From Candidatus Thioglobus autotrophicus (GTDB lineage: Bacteria > Pseudomonadota > Gammaproteobacteria > PS1 > Pseudothioglobaceae), in NCBI RefSeq assembly GCF_001293165.1, contig NZ_CP010552.1, positions 310,001 through 374,000 on the forward strand: DNA of 64,000 nucleotides, in the 5' to 3' direction. The position numbers were made by a program, and so were the translations under genes. The notes under the pieces are model-generated. The model worked only from the letters and a program-made list of their open reading frames with translations, did no database searches and was not told where the DNA came from. This document shows positions 9,050-53,193 of the stretch, in pieces. Numbering within the stretch: position 1 is the stretch's first letter; the number at the start of each line of letters is the position of its first letter.

Positions 9050-9993
9050 AATTTTTCAGCTAATTTATTTAAAAAGTCTTTGCCAATATCAAGGTCTACT
9101 TTTAAGTAATACATCTTATCATTGGCAAACTCTCTACATTTTACCCAATCTTTAGCAGTCATGATTATTGGATAATTATCTTCAAATGCTAGATCTTGCG
9201 CTTGATACGGATAATGATCCTCAAAAGCCTGTTTTTGTACGTCGATGTTGAGCTGCGCCAAGGTGTTAAAGAAACGCTCAGGATGGCCAATACCAGCCAT
9301 ACCATGACAAGTTTGATTCTTAAAAAAATCAAGCGGAAATTCTTCTTCACTGCGCATATGAACAAATTTTACGGGTTTCAATTGAACAGAAACCTCTCCA
9401 GGAAATACGCCGCCATTATTAATAATGAAATCAACCTGCTTAAGTCTATTTTGTGACTCTCTCAAAGGTCCAGCAGGTAGGAAAAACTGATTACCAAAAC
9501 GTCGATTACCATCAATCACTGCAATTTCTACCGTTCTGTCCATCGCGTAATGTTGCAAACCATCATCACTAATAACCAGATCAACTTGATGTTGATCAAT
9601 TAAATCTTTGACCGCCTGAGATCGATCTTTATTGACCATAACTGGCACCCCAGTTGATATGACAATGAGTAACGGCTCATCACCCGATAAAGCAACATTG
9701 GTATGTGCATTAACCAATAAACTGCCTTGCGTATGAGTGCCACCATAACCTCTAGATACTACCCCAACTCGCCTGCCTTGCTGTTTAAAATATTGCACAA
9801 GCTTAATAACAACAGGGGTTTTTCCACTGCCGCCAACAGTAATATTACCCACCACTATCACTGGAACTTGAAAATGATGCGTTTGCAAAATACCCCATCG
9901 ATACAAAGCTCGACGCAACTTACTTAGCGCATAAAAAACACCAGAGACTGGCCACAACAAGTAATTAACAACACCTCGAGTATTTAAATCCAT
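9046..9993 (-). CDS. lpxK: Tetraacyldisaccharide 4'-kinase
   Basis: A 315-residue membrane-associated kinase that phosphorylates the 4' position of the lipid A precursor. It has an N-terminal hydrophobic segment (residues 8-24), the Walker A loop [11 protein letters not shown] (Gly54-Thr59) and the conserved [23 protein letters not shown] and GIGHPERFF motifs. The stop overlaps the Trm112-like gene by four bases and kdsB follows, making a lipid A/core unit. msbA, often upstream, is absent; a PsiE-like gene lies 6 bp upstream instead. Confidence 0.96.
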
Positions 9994-20735: not shown

Positions 20736-21859
20736 TTAGCCTGCTAATCGGCTTATTTTTTCTCAGTAGTGCCTTTGCTGACAATCGAACCACACTGCAT
20801 GATTTTCGTTTTTGGAGCTCCCCTGAGCGTACTAGAATCGTAATTGATGTTGATCAAGGCGTTAGATTTTCAATCAATCAACAACAAAATCAATTCACCC
20901 TTGGTATTCGCAACGCCAAGCTACTAAAAGACACTTACAAAAAATTATTCTTCACCGATCAACGCATTAAAAAAACACGTGTCAAGCGCGACGACACCAC
21001 CTACCAATTCAAATTTAAATTGCACGGCCAATATCAAATCAAAAGCTATACGCTTAAACCAAATGATAAATATCGCCACCACCGCTTAGTTGTAGACCTC
21101 TATGATCAAAAAAATCAAACTACTAAAGCTGTCAAAAAATCTAAAAAATCCCTTAGCAAAGCCTTAGTCAGTAAGCAGCATGGCACCAGAATTATATTAA
21201 TTGACGCCGGACATGGCGGCGAAGATCCGGGTGCAATCGGCTATAAACGCTCAAAAGAAAAACGCATCACCCTCAGTATAGCCAAAAAATTAGCCAACAA
21301 GATTAATGCCACTCGCGGCATGAAAGCTGTTTTGACGCGCCGAGGCGATTATTACGTGGGTCTTACTCAGCGTATTCGCATCGCCCAAGCCAACCAAGCC
21401 TCTTTGTTTGTCTCCATTCATGCTGACGCCGTTAAAAGCAGACGCGCTAAAGGCGCTTCGGTTTATATTTTGTCAGAGCGTGGCGGGTCGACCAACTTTG
21501 CACGACGTTTAGAAAAATCTCAAAATACGGCTGATCAATTTGGCGTCAAGCAAAAGCTTAATAGCAAAGATCAATATTTAAACAAAATCCTTTGGGATTT
21601 ATCCAGAAAAGACCGAGATACTCAGAGTCAAAAATTGGGCACTAAAATCTTACAACAGATGCAGAAAATTGGCCATCTGCACAAGAAAAAACCACAAAAA
21701 GCCGACTTTGTTGTCTTAAAGACACCGGCCATTCCCTCAGTATTAGTGGAAACTGCCTTTATCTCCAACCCTGAGGAAGAGAGGCGACTTAACAGCAACA
21801 AAGAACAAGATAAAATTGCCAATGCTATCTATCAAGGCATTCTGAACTACTACAAATAG
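20723..21859 (+). CDS. N-acetylmuramoyl-L-alanine amidase (AmiB/AmiC type)
   Basis: A 378-residue exported amidase that cuts the peptide from N-acetylmuramic acid during septum splitting. Signal peptide residues 1-19 (LISLLIGLFFLSSAFA), then an AMIN domain (about 22-130), a lysine-rich linker and an Amidase_3 domain (about 155-375). Zinc ligands and catalytic Glu are in LIDAGHGGEDPGA, SIHADAV and VLVETAFISNPEEE. Following tsaE as in many gammaproteobacteria; mutL, the next gene in E. coli, is missing here. Whether it equals AmiB or AmiC cannot be decided. A possible hairpin lies 36 bp beyond its stop. Confidence 0.93.
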   Translation: MHRLISLLIGLFFLSSAFADNRTTLHDFRFWSSPERTRIVIDVDQGVRFSINQQQNQFTLGIRNAKLLKDTYKKLFFTDQRIKKTRVKRDDTTYQFKFKLHGQYQIKSYTLKPNDKYRHHRLVVDLYDQKNQTTKAVKKSKKSLSKALVSKQHGTRIILIDAGHGGEDPGAIGYKRSKEKRITLSIAKKLANKINATRGMKAVLTRRGDYYVGLTQRIRIAQANQASLFVSIHADAVKSRRAKGASVYILSERGGSTNFARRLEKSQNTADQFGVKQKLNSKDQYLNKILWDLSRKDRDTQSQKLGTKILQQMQKIGHLHKKKPQKADFVVLKTPAIPSVLVETAFISNPEEERRLNSNKEQDKIANAIYQGILNYYK

Positions 21860-22041: not shown

Positions 22042-22374
22042 TTAAGACTTCTCAGGTGCGTGATTTTCTTCTGGTGCAGTATAGTCTGGATCGTTTGGAT
22101 TCATAAATACAAAGCTATAATCCTGGTCAGCTTCGATTTGATCAAAGTCAACCACCATCCCTTCTAGTAGTTCTTTTTGCTCGTAAGCCAAAATATACTC
22201 AACACCATTTGATTCTAGGTGAATATCACTATCATGGCGATCATCAAAACCCATTAAATACTGAAACCCTTCTTCGGTTTGATCTACGGCAAAGCGAATC
22301 ACCATGCCTTGAGTTTCTGGATTGTGAGTTGAAAGAGATATTTCTTCTGCTGCTTTTTTGGTAATGGTAATCAT
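22042..22374 (-). CDS. dsrR: DsrR, IscA-like (A-type) scaffold-fold protein
   Basis: A 110-residue protein of the HesB/IscA fold: ITKKAAEEISLS at the start, FAVDQTEEGFQYLMGFDD, then a C-terminal strand region YSFVFMNPNDPDYTAP. The three cysteines of true A-type Fe-S carriers are absent; there is no cysteine at all. That is the known state of DsrR, which in Allochromatium vinosum is reported to affect dsr expression after transcription and not to carry clusters. It overlaps dsrN by four bases and ends the cluster. Confidence 0.88.
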   Translation of the reverse strand: MITITKKAAEEISLSTHNPETQGMVIRFAVDQTEEGFQYLMGFDDRHDSDIHLESNGVEYILAYEQKELLEGMVVDFDQIEADQDYSFVFMNPNDPDYTAPEENHAPEKS

Positions 22375-30544: not shown

Positions 30545-30868
30545 CTAGATACAACCAGTTGGCTTTGGAAGACCAGCGAAACGACAACCTTGCTTACCAG
30601 GACCGTAAGGGAACAAAGAGTAAAGGTACTTAGAGTTACCTTTGTCTTTACCCATTCTCTTAGCGATAGCCTTTGTAAGTACACGAACTGCAGGTGCAAT
30701 TTGGTACTCTTCAAAATACTCACGTAAGAAATTAATAACATCCCAATGTTCGTCAGTTAATTCAACTCCGTCATCAGCAGCCATTTGCTTACAAATGTCT
30801 TCATTCCAATCTTTAAGATCTACTAAGAAACCTTCTTCATCTACTTCAGCGCCACAAATCTGTGCCAT
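30545..30868 (-). CDS. dsrC: DsrC, sulfur carrier with two C-terminal cysteines
   Basis: A 107-residue small helical protein. The flexible C-terminal arm has both conserved cysteines: Cys95 in KQGCRFAG and the penultimate Cys106 in GLPKPTGCI, eleven residues apart as in canonical DsrC. DsrC receives sulfur from DsrEFH, presents it to DsrAB, and is oxidised by DsrMKJOP. The presence of both cysteines separates it from TusE and from the single-cysteine paralogue at 52647-52937. It lies 27 bp after dsrH and before the hairpin at 30499-30528. Confidence 0.97.
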   Translation of the reverse strand: MAQICGAEVDEEGFLVDLKDWNEDICKQMAADDGVELTDEHWDVINFLREYFEEYQIAPAVRVLTKAIAKRMGKDKGNSKYLYSLFPYGPGKQGCRFAGLPKPTGCI

Positions 30869-50057: not shown

Positions 50058-50254
50058 TTATCATTGTTAATGGCCAGCAACTAGAAATCGAAAAATCAGC
50101 CACAGCTGATAATTTAATTAACCAATTAAATTATCAAGATCAGCGCATTGCTTTGGAAATTAATGAAGCTATTATTCCAAAGTCTAAGCACGATAAGTTC
50201 GAGCTAAATGAAGGTGATCAAATTGAGATTATTAAAGCCGTTGGTGGCGGCTAG
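50054..50254 (+). CDS. thiS: Sulfur carrier protein ThiS
   Basis: A 66-residue beta-grasp ubiquitin-like protein: MIIIVNGQQLEIEKSATADNL at the start, RIALEINEAIIPKSKH in the middle and the C-terminal KAVGGG tail that is adenylated and thiocarboxylated. It gives sulfur to ThiG for the thiazole of thiamine. ThiG lies about 50 kb away at the left window edge. It overlaps the upstream HMA gene by four bases and the convergent PP-loop gene by four. Confidence 0.94.
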   Translation: MIIIVNGQQLEIEKSATADNLINQLNYQDQRIALEINEAIIPKSKHDKFELNEGDQIEIIKAVGGG

Positions 50255-51300
50255 ACAAACCACGCTTTAGGAATTTCGTCCACACCTAAAGGTTTAACGC
50301 TAAATTGTTGAGTGACACCTACATTTAGCTTAACCTCAACTTCAACATTTGGCTGCTCTCGACCTTGCGAATAACGCGCTAGAATTTGCGCGGCAATTTT
50401 AAGATCTTCTTGATTTGGCTCGCCATCAATTAGCGCAATTGGACCATTGCAACTAGTGGGATAAAGATTGGCATATTGATTTCTATAACCTTCTAAAAAC
50501 TTCACTTCCCCTTCTTCTCTAGCGACAATCATCTTAAAGCGTTGGTTAGGACGAATATGACGACCCACTTTAAGCATCATTAAATCATCAAGCTGATAAT
50601 CGCGATTGCCGCGAGATTGCCACATATCAACCAATTTATCAGAATATTGCTTATCGGTTAAAAAACAACAGCCTCCTGCAGGAGTTGCATAATCATCAAA
50701 TCCATAAGCCTTTGCCAAAGCCATTTGCGGCTTACGCGTGCGCCCAGAAAAATCAAGTAACTGCTCTCGATCCACCCAACCCTCTTTTTCTGCTTTAGTT
50801 TCAGGCAAGTGTTTAGCGCACAATGGGCGCAATAATAGATCATCTGCGCCTGATTCTGCTTGCACCACTGGCATAGTATCTTTACGCTGAGACATAGGGC
50901 GCTGACCCATCACCTCACCCGTAATAATAAAATCAAACTCATTTTCTTCCATCCACTCTTTGGCTTTTTTCACCATAAAGCCTTTGCAATCCAAGCAAGG
51001 ATTCATATTTTTGCCATAGCCGTGCTTTGGATTTAACAAAACATCGCGATATTCTTCAATAACATCAATAATATGCAATTTAATGCCGAGTTGTTCAGCC
51101 ACCCAAAGTGCATTGTTGCGCTTTTGTTTATCACTCTTTTGCTTGCGAATAGCGTGCGTATGCCCTTCTACACAAAATCCAGTAAAAAAGTTAATACCTT
51201 CAACATGAACACCTTGATCTAATAATAACTTAGTGCTCAATAGGGAATCCAATCCACCTGAAATTAGGGATACTGCTTTAATTTGTTTTTTATCTGTCAT
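50251..51300 (-). CDS. PP-loop ATPase, ThiI/MnmA-like tRNA thiolation-type protein
   Basis: A 349-residue protein. PP-loop SLISGGLDSLLSTKLLLDQG near residues 11-30 activates an RNA or carrier substrate by adenylation. Cysteines of note are CLDCKGF near 103-106, a CC pair near 215 (GGCCFLTDK) and TSCNGP near 285. The C-terminal third (MIVAREEGEVKFLEGYRNQYANLYPTSCNGP) resembles an NFACT-R-like appended domain. Related proteins are annotated as 2-thiouridylase-like, but it is shorter and different from true MnmA. Substrate unknown; the position opposite thiS suggests sulfur transfer. Confidence 0.78.
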   Translation of the reverse strand: MTDKKQIKAVSLISGGLDSLLSTKLLLDQGVHVEGINFFTGFCVEGHTHAIRKQKSDKQKRNNALWVAEQLGIKLHIIDVIEEYRDVLLNPKHGYGKNMNPCLDCKGFMVKKAKEWMEENEFDFIITGEVMGQRPMSQRKDTMPVVQAESGADDLLLRPLCAKHLPETKAEKEGWVDREQLLDFSGRTRKPQMALAKAYGFDDYATPAGGCCFLTDKQYSDKLVDMWQSRGNRDYQLDDLMMLKVGRHIRPNQRFKMIVAREEGEVKFLEGYRNQYANLYPTSCNGPIALIDGEPNQEDLKIAAQILARYSQGREQPNVEVEVKLNVGVTQQFSVKPLGVDEIPKAWFV

Positions 51301-52187: not shown

Positions 52188-52319
52188 AGCGCTTAAATTA
52201 TACCTATGAGTAGCAAACTTCATTCCCATATAAAAAATAGCTAATACAATTAACCTTAGTTGATATAATACTCATTGTTAACAAAAAACAGAATTTACAT
52301 TAACTTACTAGGAGATACC

Positions 52320-52487
52320 ATGGCTAACGGCATTACAAAAGGCAACAGACCAGCATTAGGAAGCAGCTTAGAGGCATTAAATGCATCTAACCCTTTAAAT
52401 TCAAGAGCAGGTAACGAAACTGTTACAGCAACTCAAGATTATAAAAAAGGCATGAAGTCTGCAGAAGAATTAGATGATATGAGATAA
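52320..52487 (+). CDS. Small orphan protein, 55 residues
   Basis: Read from ATG 52320, with AGGAG about six bases before it; the open frame extends 15 codons upstream but has no other good start. The protein is polar and glycine/asparagine/alanine-rich, begins MANGITKGNRPALGSSLEAL and ends DYKKGMKSAEELDDMR. No signal, membrane helix or cysteine. A clean intrinsic terminator follows at 52517-52536, and a TATAAT lies at 52264-52269, so it is a complete monocistronic unit and probably real. I do not recognise the family. Confidence 0.65.
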   Translation: MANGITKGNRPALGSSLEALNASNPLNSRAGNETVTATQDYKKGMKSAEELDDMR

Positions 52488-52516
52488 GCCCATTTATGGC
52501 TACTTAAATCATAAAG

Positions 52517-52536
52517 CCCTCGAAAGAGGGTTTTTT
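52517..52536 (+). terminator. Intrinsic terminator after the 55-residue gene
   Basis: CCCTC-GAAA-GAGGG with a GNRA-type tetraloop followed by TTTTTT, 29 bp after the stop codon at 52485-52487. Confidence 0.92.
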
Positions 52537-52589
52537 ATGGCCTAAAATTCGCCCTATATCCATACAAATAAAATGTGTATTTATAAAAT

Positions 52590-52603
52590 TTGACTTAAAT
52601 CAA
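52590..52603 (+). promoter_or_regulatory. FNR/Anr-like box upstream of DsrC-like gene
   Basis: TTGAC-TTAA-ATCAA differs from the FNR consensus TTGAT-N4-ATCAA at one of ten defined positions. It ends 43 bp before the DsrC-like start. TATAAT-like sequence follows at 52609-52614, which would put the box unusually close to the start site for an activator (repression or a second -10 near 52628 are alternatives). The match is by eye. Confidence 0.4.
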
Positions 52604-52646
52604 TCTTATATAATATACCCAATTAAATTACTATGGTATTAGAAAA

Positions 52647-52937
52647 ATGGCATTAGATAGAACAGGAAATGGCTACTTAGTAGACCCATCAATTTGGACC
52701 GAAGACATCATGCATGAAATGGCAACAGAAGATGAGATTACATTAACAGATTCTCAAGTCACTCAAATTCTTGCTGCCAGAGAGTATTTCTCTGAAAATT
52801 CTTCAGTACCTCCTATCAGAACTTTCTCAAAAGTAGTCGGTATTGACAAAAAAATTCTTTTTAAAGAGTGGCTAACAGGCCCAATGAAACCAATCACGAA
52901 ATATGGAGGGATGCCACAACCAACTGGTTGCGTCTAA
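52647..52937 (+). CDS. DsrC/TusE-family paralogue with a single C-terminal cysteine
   Basis: A 96-residue protein collinear with DsrC: MALDRTGNGYLVDPSIWTED, LTDSQVTQILAAREYFSENSSVPPIRTF and the C-terminal GGMPQPTGCV. The penultimate Cys95 (CysA) is kept, but the position eleven residues before it, Cys in DsrC, is Thr84. That is the TusE-like state, able to accept sulfur as a persulfide but not to form the intramolecular disulfide. No tusBCD genes are beside it; the only DsrEFH set is in the dsr cluster. Monocistronic: own upstream box and terminator structures downstream. Either TusE for tRNA thiolation or a regulatory DsrC paralogue. Confidence 0.93.
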   Translation: MALDRTGNGYLVDPSIWTEDIMHEMATEDEITLTDSQVTQILAAREYFSENSSVPPIRTFSKVVGIDKKILFKEWLTGPMKPITKYGGMPQPTGCV

Positions 52938-53070: not shown

Positions 53071-53096
53071 AAAAAACCCTCTTTTGAGGGTTTTTT
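53071..53096. terminator. Bidirectional intrinsic terminator
   Basis: AAAAAACCCTC-TTTT-GAGGGTTTTTT is a symmetric stem-loop with A-run and T-run on either side, so it can end transcription from the DsrC-like gene (+) and from alaS (-). Confidence 0.88.
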
Positions 53097-53193
53097 ATTG
53101 CCTGACCTTTATAGAAATATTTCTAAAACCACTCATTGAGATATTTTTTTAAGTCTAAAGCAGATGCTACTTACACCTCCAATTGTGATGCAA

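Follow-up and report, generated by a model that had tools for sequence, protein, structure and literature searches.

A short single-cysteine DsrC-family protein of Candidatus Thioglobus autotrophicus as host counterpart of phage dsrC-like genes

The inner of the two C-terminal cysteines of DsrC serves a disulfide/trisulfide cycle. The penultimate cysteine is the one that binds sulfur: in the part of Stockdreher et al. 2012 (PMC3397948) on which we draw, DsrC of A. vinosum was persulfurated only at this residue, Cys111, with sulfur received from DsrE, and the inner cysteine is stated to go with DsrAB, with named exceptions. The same organism has four other paralogs, Alvin_0028, Alvin_0345, Alvin_0732 and Alvin_1508, which, like the protein described here, are additional copies that have no assigned role although their host has dsr (PMC3368242, in the section concerned). 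In A. vinosum on pyrite, Alvin_1508 was down about 7-fold along with the dsr genes and the three other paralogs were up, according to the relevant excerpt of PMC11267869. A further group of relatives comes from viruses. Roux et al. 2014 (PMC4164917, as excerpted) described dsrC_1, an auxiliary gene of SUP05 phages, and left its role open; in the portions of the literature used here it has been read as a modified DsrC or as TusE (PMC4164917, PMC8190135). In the excerpts of Kieft et al. 2021 (PMC8190135), 112 of 141 phage DsrC sequences have only the second cysteine motif, and most of the sequences that lack a cysteine are thought likely to serve as TusE. A paper on SUP05 expression mentions dsrC once in the part covered (PMC6509183), and the parts covered of PMC6359870 and PMC8359478 add nothing further on the family described below. 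Within these portions of the literature we found no treatment of the host family as something distinct from DsrC and TusE, and an earlier notice of it is possible.

The window considered in this work is the whole stretch of 64,000 nucleotides that was analysed, positions 310,001 to 374,000 of contig NZ_CP010552.1 of Candidatus Thioglobus autotrophicus, and coordinates are those of the window unless stated otherwise. The dsr cluster in the window contains a bona fide DsrC with both cysteines (30545..30868, minus strand), which was identified by profile search and used as the paralog for comparison. The gene under study, at 52647..52937 on the plus strand, encodes a short, single-cysteine DsrC-family protein of 96 residues, referred to here as short DsrC; the assignment comes from profiles, orthologs, clade and the AlphaFold2 fold. 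It scores 67.6 bits against the Pfam DsrC family (PF04358; cut-off 24.9) and 56.4 bits against TIGR03342 (cut-off 53.5), which places it in the TusE/DsrC/DsvC superfamily. In an alignment with the window DsrC, the column of the inner cysteine (CysB) holds Thr84 (codon 52896..52898, plus strand) and the penultimate residue is Cys95 (CysA; codon 52929..52931, plus strand), the expected sulfur-binding residue by its conservation and its equivalence to the persulfurated Cys111 of A. vinosum (PMC3397948, in the part cited above). The first-pass annotation of this DNA had proposed a second DsrC-family protein with Thr in place of the second redox cysteine, and this is borne out. It had also put the missing loop residues at about ten; the loop is indeed shorter, but by seven residues, absent between D67 and K68 (at 52848, plus strand) by alignment with the window DsrC and other DsrC chains, with four further residues absent at the N-terminus relative to the window DsrC. 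The C-terminal arm, GPMKPITKYGGMPQPTGCV (52878..52934, plus strand), is strongly conserved in the alignments of both host and phage copies.

The ORF at 52647-52937 is a real gene of the DsrC superfamily. The median dN/dS is about 0.05 in hosts (8 copies, with 16 of 28 pairs usable and 12 dropped because dS was too high) and 0.09 among phage copies (73 pairs), so that host and phage copies are both under strong constraint; a chance ORF or a decaying gene was rejected on the conservation of the orthologs and the low dN/dS. The AlphaFold2 model (pLDDT 90.8) has the DsrC fold, and all 8 Foldseek matches in the PDB with E <= 0.001 are DsrC/TusE structures (E 2.7e-06 to 2.9e-04). The same search gave weak partial matches, about 45-60 columns long at E 0.3 or worse, to segments of LexA and of TetR-family regulators, which is what could be said for short DsrC being a DNA-binding or signalling protein, a regulator like RspA. 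The DsrC/TusE structures match far better, however, and the conserved part of the protein is the cysteine-bearing arm, with the penultimate cysteine in every member that was read, which makes such a regulator very improbable; the regulatory role suggested at first found nothing beyond these partial fold matches. RspA is described as lacking both cysteines; short DsrC has C95, and the cysteine-free member of the genome is another paralog (L002, described below). The PADLOC library gave no match.

It is firmly established that the family of short DsrC is neither DsrC nor TusE. In a tree of 129 proteins and 104 columns, made by a quick search so that its fine forks are weak, the host members (groups I to III) and 37 viral representatives form one clade with an SH-aLRT support of 100 and a stem of 1.22. 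E. coli TusE groups separately with ten other proteins (88), adjacent to the DsrC proteins of sulfur oxidisers, and four two-cysteine proteins from single-copy genomes fall inside DsrC; short DsrC lies in its own clade, outside both the TusE group and DsrC, as a tree suggested at the outset was meant to settle. The 11 DsrC rows of the tree are a choice of ours, and two of the 16 single-copy loci, L324 and L329, were left out, having no ORF by the pattern used. The tails agree with this division. The end PTGCV, and with it the penultimate cysteine, is found in 52 of the 52 sampled host members, and PTGC[VI] in 15/15 sampled DsrC proteins and in 0/11 proteins of the TusE clade. Short DsrC therefore has the PTGC[VI] terminus of DsrC, and T84 and C95 where DsrC has two C-terminal cysteines 11 residues apart. 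Against the TusE equivalog model it scores 31.6 bits, far under the cut-off of 191; the window DsrC also falls short, at 118.8.

Compared with DsrC (A. vinosum 1YX3 and D. vulgaris 2V4J), short DsrC shares the fold, with a query-normalised TM-score of 0.83-0.84, as well as the penultimate cysteine, the PTGC tail and the occurrence with dsr. It differs in lacking the inner cysteine, in lying outside the dsr operon, in being only 38% identical to the window DsrC, and in its separate, long-stemmed clade. With TusE of E. coli K-12 (NP_415489.4) it has in common the superfamily, a single penultimate cysteine and Thr at the inner position, whereas the loop that TusE keeps is absent, the tail is PTGCV instead of PVKCI, and the clade is another. 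It is worth pointing out that the loop is also absent in DsrC of sulfate reducers (2V4J, 2XSJ) and of P. aerophilum (1JI8), a likeness to those proteins; the loop alone thus says little on function, and its absence was rejected as proof of a lost DsrC function. Plain TusE was rejected as the family assignment by tree, tail, loop and co-occurrence, while TusE as a function stays among the rival readings taken up below.

The family is well represented among relatives of the organism. In its own taxonomic family, short DsrC was found in 24 of 36 genomes, its own included, and no copy was found in the other 12; the 23 other orthologs comprise 22 at 82-94% identity and one (G017) at 62%. Among the best 80 of 463 relatives, close ones in named genomes come from Candidatus Thioglobus, Ruthia, Vesicomyosocius and Bathymodiolus symbionts, which places the host in the SUP05 group. 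On 369 genomes of the class, a profile built from 10 members was then used, and among the matches listed its scores fall into separate bands. The upper band, at 149 bits or more, has 43 matches in 42 genomes and corresponds to group I, to which short DsrC itself belongs, with T or S at the inner position in those read; the lower, at 98.9-121 bits, covers 18 genomes, 15 of which were fetched and gave seven members of group II (inner Ala) and eight of group III (inner Cys). The DsrC proteins that were looked up score 88 bits or less. In group III (L311, L312, L314, L316, L317, L319, L320 and L322) the inner cysteine is present in 8/8, in an ICKW motif, so the loss of the inner cysteine is not family-wide. 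Sequences were taken for 40 of the 61 family matches and for those in G000, G012, G014, G022, G044 and G049.

This distribution follows the dsr genes closely. The family is present in 59 of the 369 genomes (G356 appears in both bands), and dsrA in 55 of these 59, compared with 67 of the 310 without the family; the 122 dsrA-positive genomes are 116 over the cut-off and 6 with strong fragments. For one of the four exceptions, G102, a fragment of dsrB was found where a contig ends. In the other three, G216, G322 and G308, which are 81-91% complete and in 200-430 contigs, neither dsrA nor dsrB was found, and each has a dsrA-positive congener in the same listing. Fisher tests against dsrA alone, which ignore shared ancestry, gave 2e-16 for group I (38/42) and 9e-10 for groups II and III together (18/18). 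On the other hand, 67 of the 122 dsrA-positive genomes have no member of the family, which, together with the 12 genomes of its own taxonomic family that have no copy, means that short DsrC is not essential for Dsr oxidation. Sixteen genomes in which dsrA did not exceed the cut-off were sampled; each carries one other DsrC-family gene, and the 14 of these genes that are in the tree all lie outside the short DsrC clade.

The idea raised at the outset, that the second carrier is not a plain TusE and is tied to the Dsr pathway, is thus supported by tree, tail and dsr co-occurrence. It had been put as two DsrC-type carriers, one inside and one outside the dsr cluster, and this holds for the window, but the genome as a whole (1.51 Mb, one contig) has four DsrC-family paralogs, short DsrC among them. 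One of the other two, L003:1489-1833 (near 1,260,991 of genome contig C1), directly follows a narI-like gene and is the mirror image of short DsrC, having kept the inner cysteine and lost the penultimate one; further copies of it occur in L073, L076 and L077. The other, L002:1477-1803 (C1 near 1,347,735), lies between aroA-like and lepB-like genes and has no cysteine at all; it has counterparts with 83% (L075) and 92% (L074) identity in two other genomes that were read.

A functional kinship to TusE is the rival that deserves the most space. According to it, short DsrC would be the working TusE of dsr organisms, loaded by TusA and by DsrEFH in place of TusBCD, and would feed MnmA for the 2-thiouridine of tRNA. 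The genome fits this in several respects: it encodes a full MnmA (455.6 bits), three of its genes have a TusA domain, TusBCD was not found apart from DsrEFH, and its four DsrC-family paralogs all lie outside the TusE clade. The search behind the missing TusBCD was a genome-wide one for PF02635 (DsrE), which has the TusB/DsrH family outside its scope and matched only dsrE, dsrF and a third gene, next to soxYZ-like genes. This third gene (L043:1495-1977, C1 near 896,812) encodes a DsrE-domain protein with a signal-peptide-like start, adjoins SoxY-like and SoxZ-like genes, and is apparently periplasmic. The single cysteine with inner Thr is the arrangement of E. coli TusE, and a TusE function is what Kieft et al. 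2021 (PMC8190135, in the excerpts used) propose for most phage copies lacking a cysteine. The position of short DsrC outside the TusE clade, its score and its missing TusE loop and tail speak against this rival, as does the tie of the family to dsr genomes, those sampled without dsrA having their one DsrC-family gene of another kind. Moreover, relatives such as G021, whose genome is 100% complete, have just two DsrC-family matches, neither of the short DsrC type by score. The tRNA-thiolation reading is weakened by these points, and we consider it unlikely. The combination that would have made the gene one of ordinary tRNA thiolation, a tusBCD operon elsewhere together with a clean place in the TusE clade, was looked for with the PF02635 search and the tree and was not found.

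The surroundings of the gene bear on the same question. No tusBCD adjoins it, as had been stated from the window. Of the 24 loci known from the taxonomic family, 22 have it near a gene for a ThiI/MnmA-like protein with an NFACT-R domain, usually with prmA between them and often with alaS on the other side; the exceptions are L047, which ends at the contig end, and L056. This neighbour could be counted in favour of tRNA thiolation, but it is not beside short DsrC in L056, L067 and L068, and for that reason it was dropped as a partner. In the window it is encoded at 50251-51300 on the minus strand, with an NFACT-R_2 domain; wherever a family locus has it, its identity is 85-95%, and it stays close to the short DsrC gene even in L058, L060 and L063, in which no prmA was found. 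A former prophage at this site is not favoured, given that the prmA/alaS synteny holds in most loci of the taxonomic family. Across families, no neighbour cluster spans more than 4 of the 43 host loci, counted on mechanical ORFs of which some are spurious, so an operon-based function was rejected and no partner is named by context. A gene for an FMN-binding protein (HugZ-like by eye) stands upstream on the same strand, at a median of 116 bp above short DsrC, in 15 of 51 more distant loci (L121-L171); the count comes from 80 named loci, and many of those 51 are closely related to each other. In the wider sample of 43 loci it was recognised in one, L296, and we take it to be lineage-limited. In single genomes, sulfur genes are found close to it, which fits a carrier of the Dsr pathway: soxXA and soxB in L068; aprBA in L294, divergent and about 1.1 kb away; cysG on one flank in L302, with dsrAB at about 3 kb on the opposite flank; and, in L305, a molybdoenzyme operon to which the profiles gave no name.

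That short DsrC is the host counterpart of the phage dsrC-like genes is firm, and the phage link of the host protein is what is new here. It scores 137.5 bits (3.3e-40) against phrog_17249, a phage family of unannotated function to which it thus belongs and which scores it twice as high as Pfam DsrC does. In IMG/VR, relatives of it are encoded at 201 places, the best of them 90% identical, and scans with the DsrC and TusE profiles found 25 and 2 places, a rough ratio since the sensitivities of the patterns differ. The best 80 of the 201 viral copies are 51-90% identical to the window protein, lack the same cysteine and the same loop, and are mixed with hosts in the tree; the penultimate cysteine is present in 80/80, and the inner position is T in 60 of them, S in 16 and A in 4. 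By comparison, 24 viral DsrC-type copies have both cysteines (L385 gave no tail), and the 2 TusE-type copies have inner Thr. The 80 viral loci dereplicate to 37. Profiles identified a major head protein (L249), a head-tail adaptor (L178), ribonucleotide reductase (L178, L189), an exonuclease (L235) and PhoH (L189) next to viral copies, and by these neighbouring genes the four contigs are phage; five more loci, the closest (L172) included, were checked by eye. Constraining the viral copies to one clade was rejected (p-AU 5e-6) and constraining the SUP05 host copies together was not (p-AU 0.09), from which it seems that the gene was exchanged between host and phage more than once. One phage contig, IMGVR_UViG_3300022200_006040, encodes a DsrC with two cysteines (L368) as well as a short copy with one (L223), which argues for different jobs of the two carriers. 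We place phrog_17249, and probably the dsrC_1 gene that Roux et al. 2014 and Kieft et al. 2021 describe from SUP05 phages, in the same protein family as short DsrC, dsrC_1 being equated with the viral copies by its published description, in the portions cited, and not by its sequences. The difference is that short DsrC is a resident, syntenic host gene whose own promoter region is conserved in the genus.

The phage neighbourhoods bring up another rival, in which short DsrC would be a thiol or redox helper of ribonucleotide reductase or some other enzyme and for that reason kept beside nrdAB in phages. A nrdB gene lies within about 4 kb in 14 of the 37 dereplicated viral loci (L189, L207 and L247 among them) and within 600 bp in 7, and an nrdA-like gene is near in 13; profiles confirmed nrdB in L178 and L189. 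This adjacency was counted without a baseline for other phage cargo genes, no ribonucleotide reductase gene was noticed by eye beside the host copies, and a helper of this kind leaves the co-occurrence with dsr unexplained. We rate it the most improbable of the readings discussed here.

The region in front of the host gene offers a hint at its control. The sequence TTGACTTAAATCAA at 52590..52603 (plus strand), a predicted element found by pattern match, fits the consensus of an FNR-type box. Genome-wide, TTGAYNNNNRTCAA has 51 occurrences, compared with 8 for a reversed control, and this pattern also precedes narK-like and narG-like genes (named by eye); among the proteins of the genome is a CRP/FNR protein whose N-terminal part has a cysteine cluster (L339). 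Of 24 ortholog loci, 7 have the exact box upstream and 2 others have it with a single mismatch, and these loci all belong to the genus or to G020; it is absent in three genus loci and in 12 others, 11 of which share a different conserved upstream stretch. The window holds three further boxes of this type, at 9586-9599, 20844-20857 and 22138-22151, or four in all where 0.7 are expected in shuffles. A probable -10 element, TATAAT, at 52609..52614 (plus strand) was seen by eye and is conserved in the genus; the promoter scan did not report it, as there is no -35 element at 16-18 bp. Two terminator-like hairpins, both recognised by eye, flank the gene: one with a T run at 52513..52540 (plus strand), a stem that the terminator scan reports on the minus strand (1 found, with a mean of 0.5 in shuffles), and a two-way one at 53071..53098, between short DsrC and alaS, that is absent from the scan output. 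The first of them separates the gene from a small upstream ORF at 52275-52487 (plus strand; probable start ATG at 52320, about 55 residues), which has no Pfam match and a 79% identical copy in L066.

The centre of the box lies 12.5 bp above the conserved TATAAT, a placement that would suit repression, although the sign of regulation is a guess from position. If it were repression, it would suit a further rival, that of a competitor or brake, in which the PTGCV arm docks on DsrEFH or DsrAB, holds sulfur unproductively and slows the turnover of DsrAB under some redox conditions. The tail, identical to that of DsrC and unlike that of TusE, and the IMG/VR matches of the short type, which outnumber true DsrC, could be taken in the same sense. 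A pure inhibitor would nevertheless be an odd thing for hosts to keep under so low a dN/dS and outside any operon, and we think a brake quite unlikely, more so than a TusE function.

The reading towards which we lean, from what the sequence and its relatives tell, is that short DsrC serves the Dsr pathway as a sulfur carrier with one cysteine, which probably receives its sulfur from DsrEFH and acts outside the DsrC cycle. We infer a one-thiol carrier from the combination of a kept penultimate cysteine and DsrC-type tail with a missing inner cysteine. C95, on its flexible arm, would take sulfane sulfur as a persulfide from the Dsr sulfurtransferase DsrEFH, in a transfer whose partner and direction are put forward on these same grounds. 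DsrC cycles with DsrAB and with DsrMKJOP or DsrL through an intramolecular disulfide or trisulfide; with Thr at the inner position, short DsrC cannot close such a bond, and it could instead carry, hold or hand on the persulfide outside that cycle. It may also compete with DsrC for DsrEFH. The first-pass annotation is, as a whole, partly supported: its second carrier that is no plain TusE is borne out, and short DsrC may, as it proposed, take sulfur from DsrEFH and divert it. The search that it suggested found mnmA and three TusA-domain genes.

Short DsrC suggests that organisms with dsr have a second class of carrier, of whose use we found no measurement in the portions of the literature consulted. 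In a tentative extension, for which we would claim somewhat less than for the carrier itself, the reverse Dsr pathway may have a second, non-redundant carrier node, with the one-thiol protein outside the DsrAB cycle as its commonest form; phages of sulfur oxidisers would have acquired this node on repeated occasions, and DsrC less often, and a viral 'dsrC' would then steer sulfane sulfur through the node without boosting DsrAB. The host gene provides a non-viral protein that can be purified, deleted and compared, which makes the question left open by Roux et al. 2014 directly testable. Viral 'dsrC' is, in the works cited above as far as they are excerpted here, a standard example of phages altering ocean sulfur chemistry, and models treat it as additional DsrC or as TusE; they would need redoing if the phage gene is part of a separate host family distinct from both.
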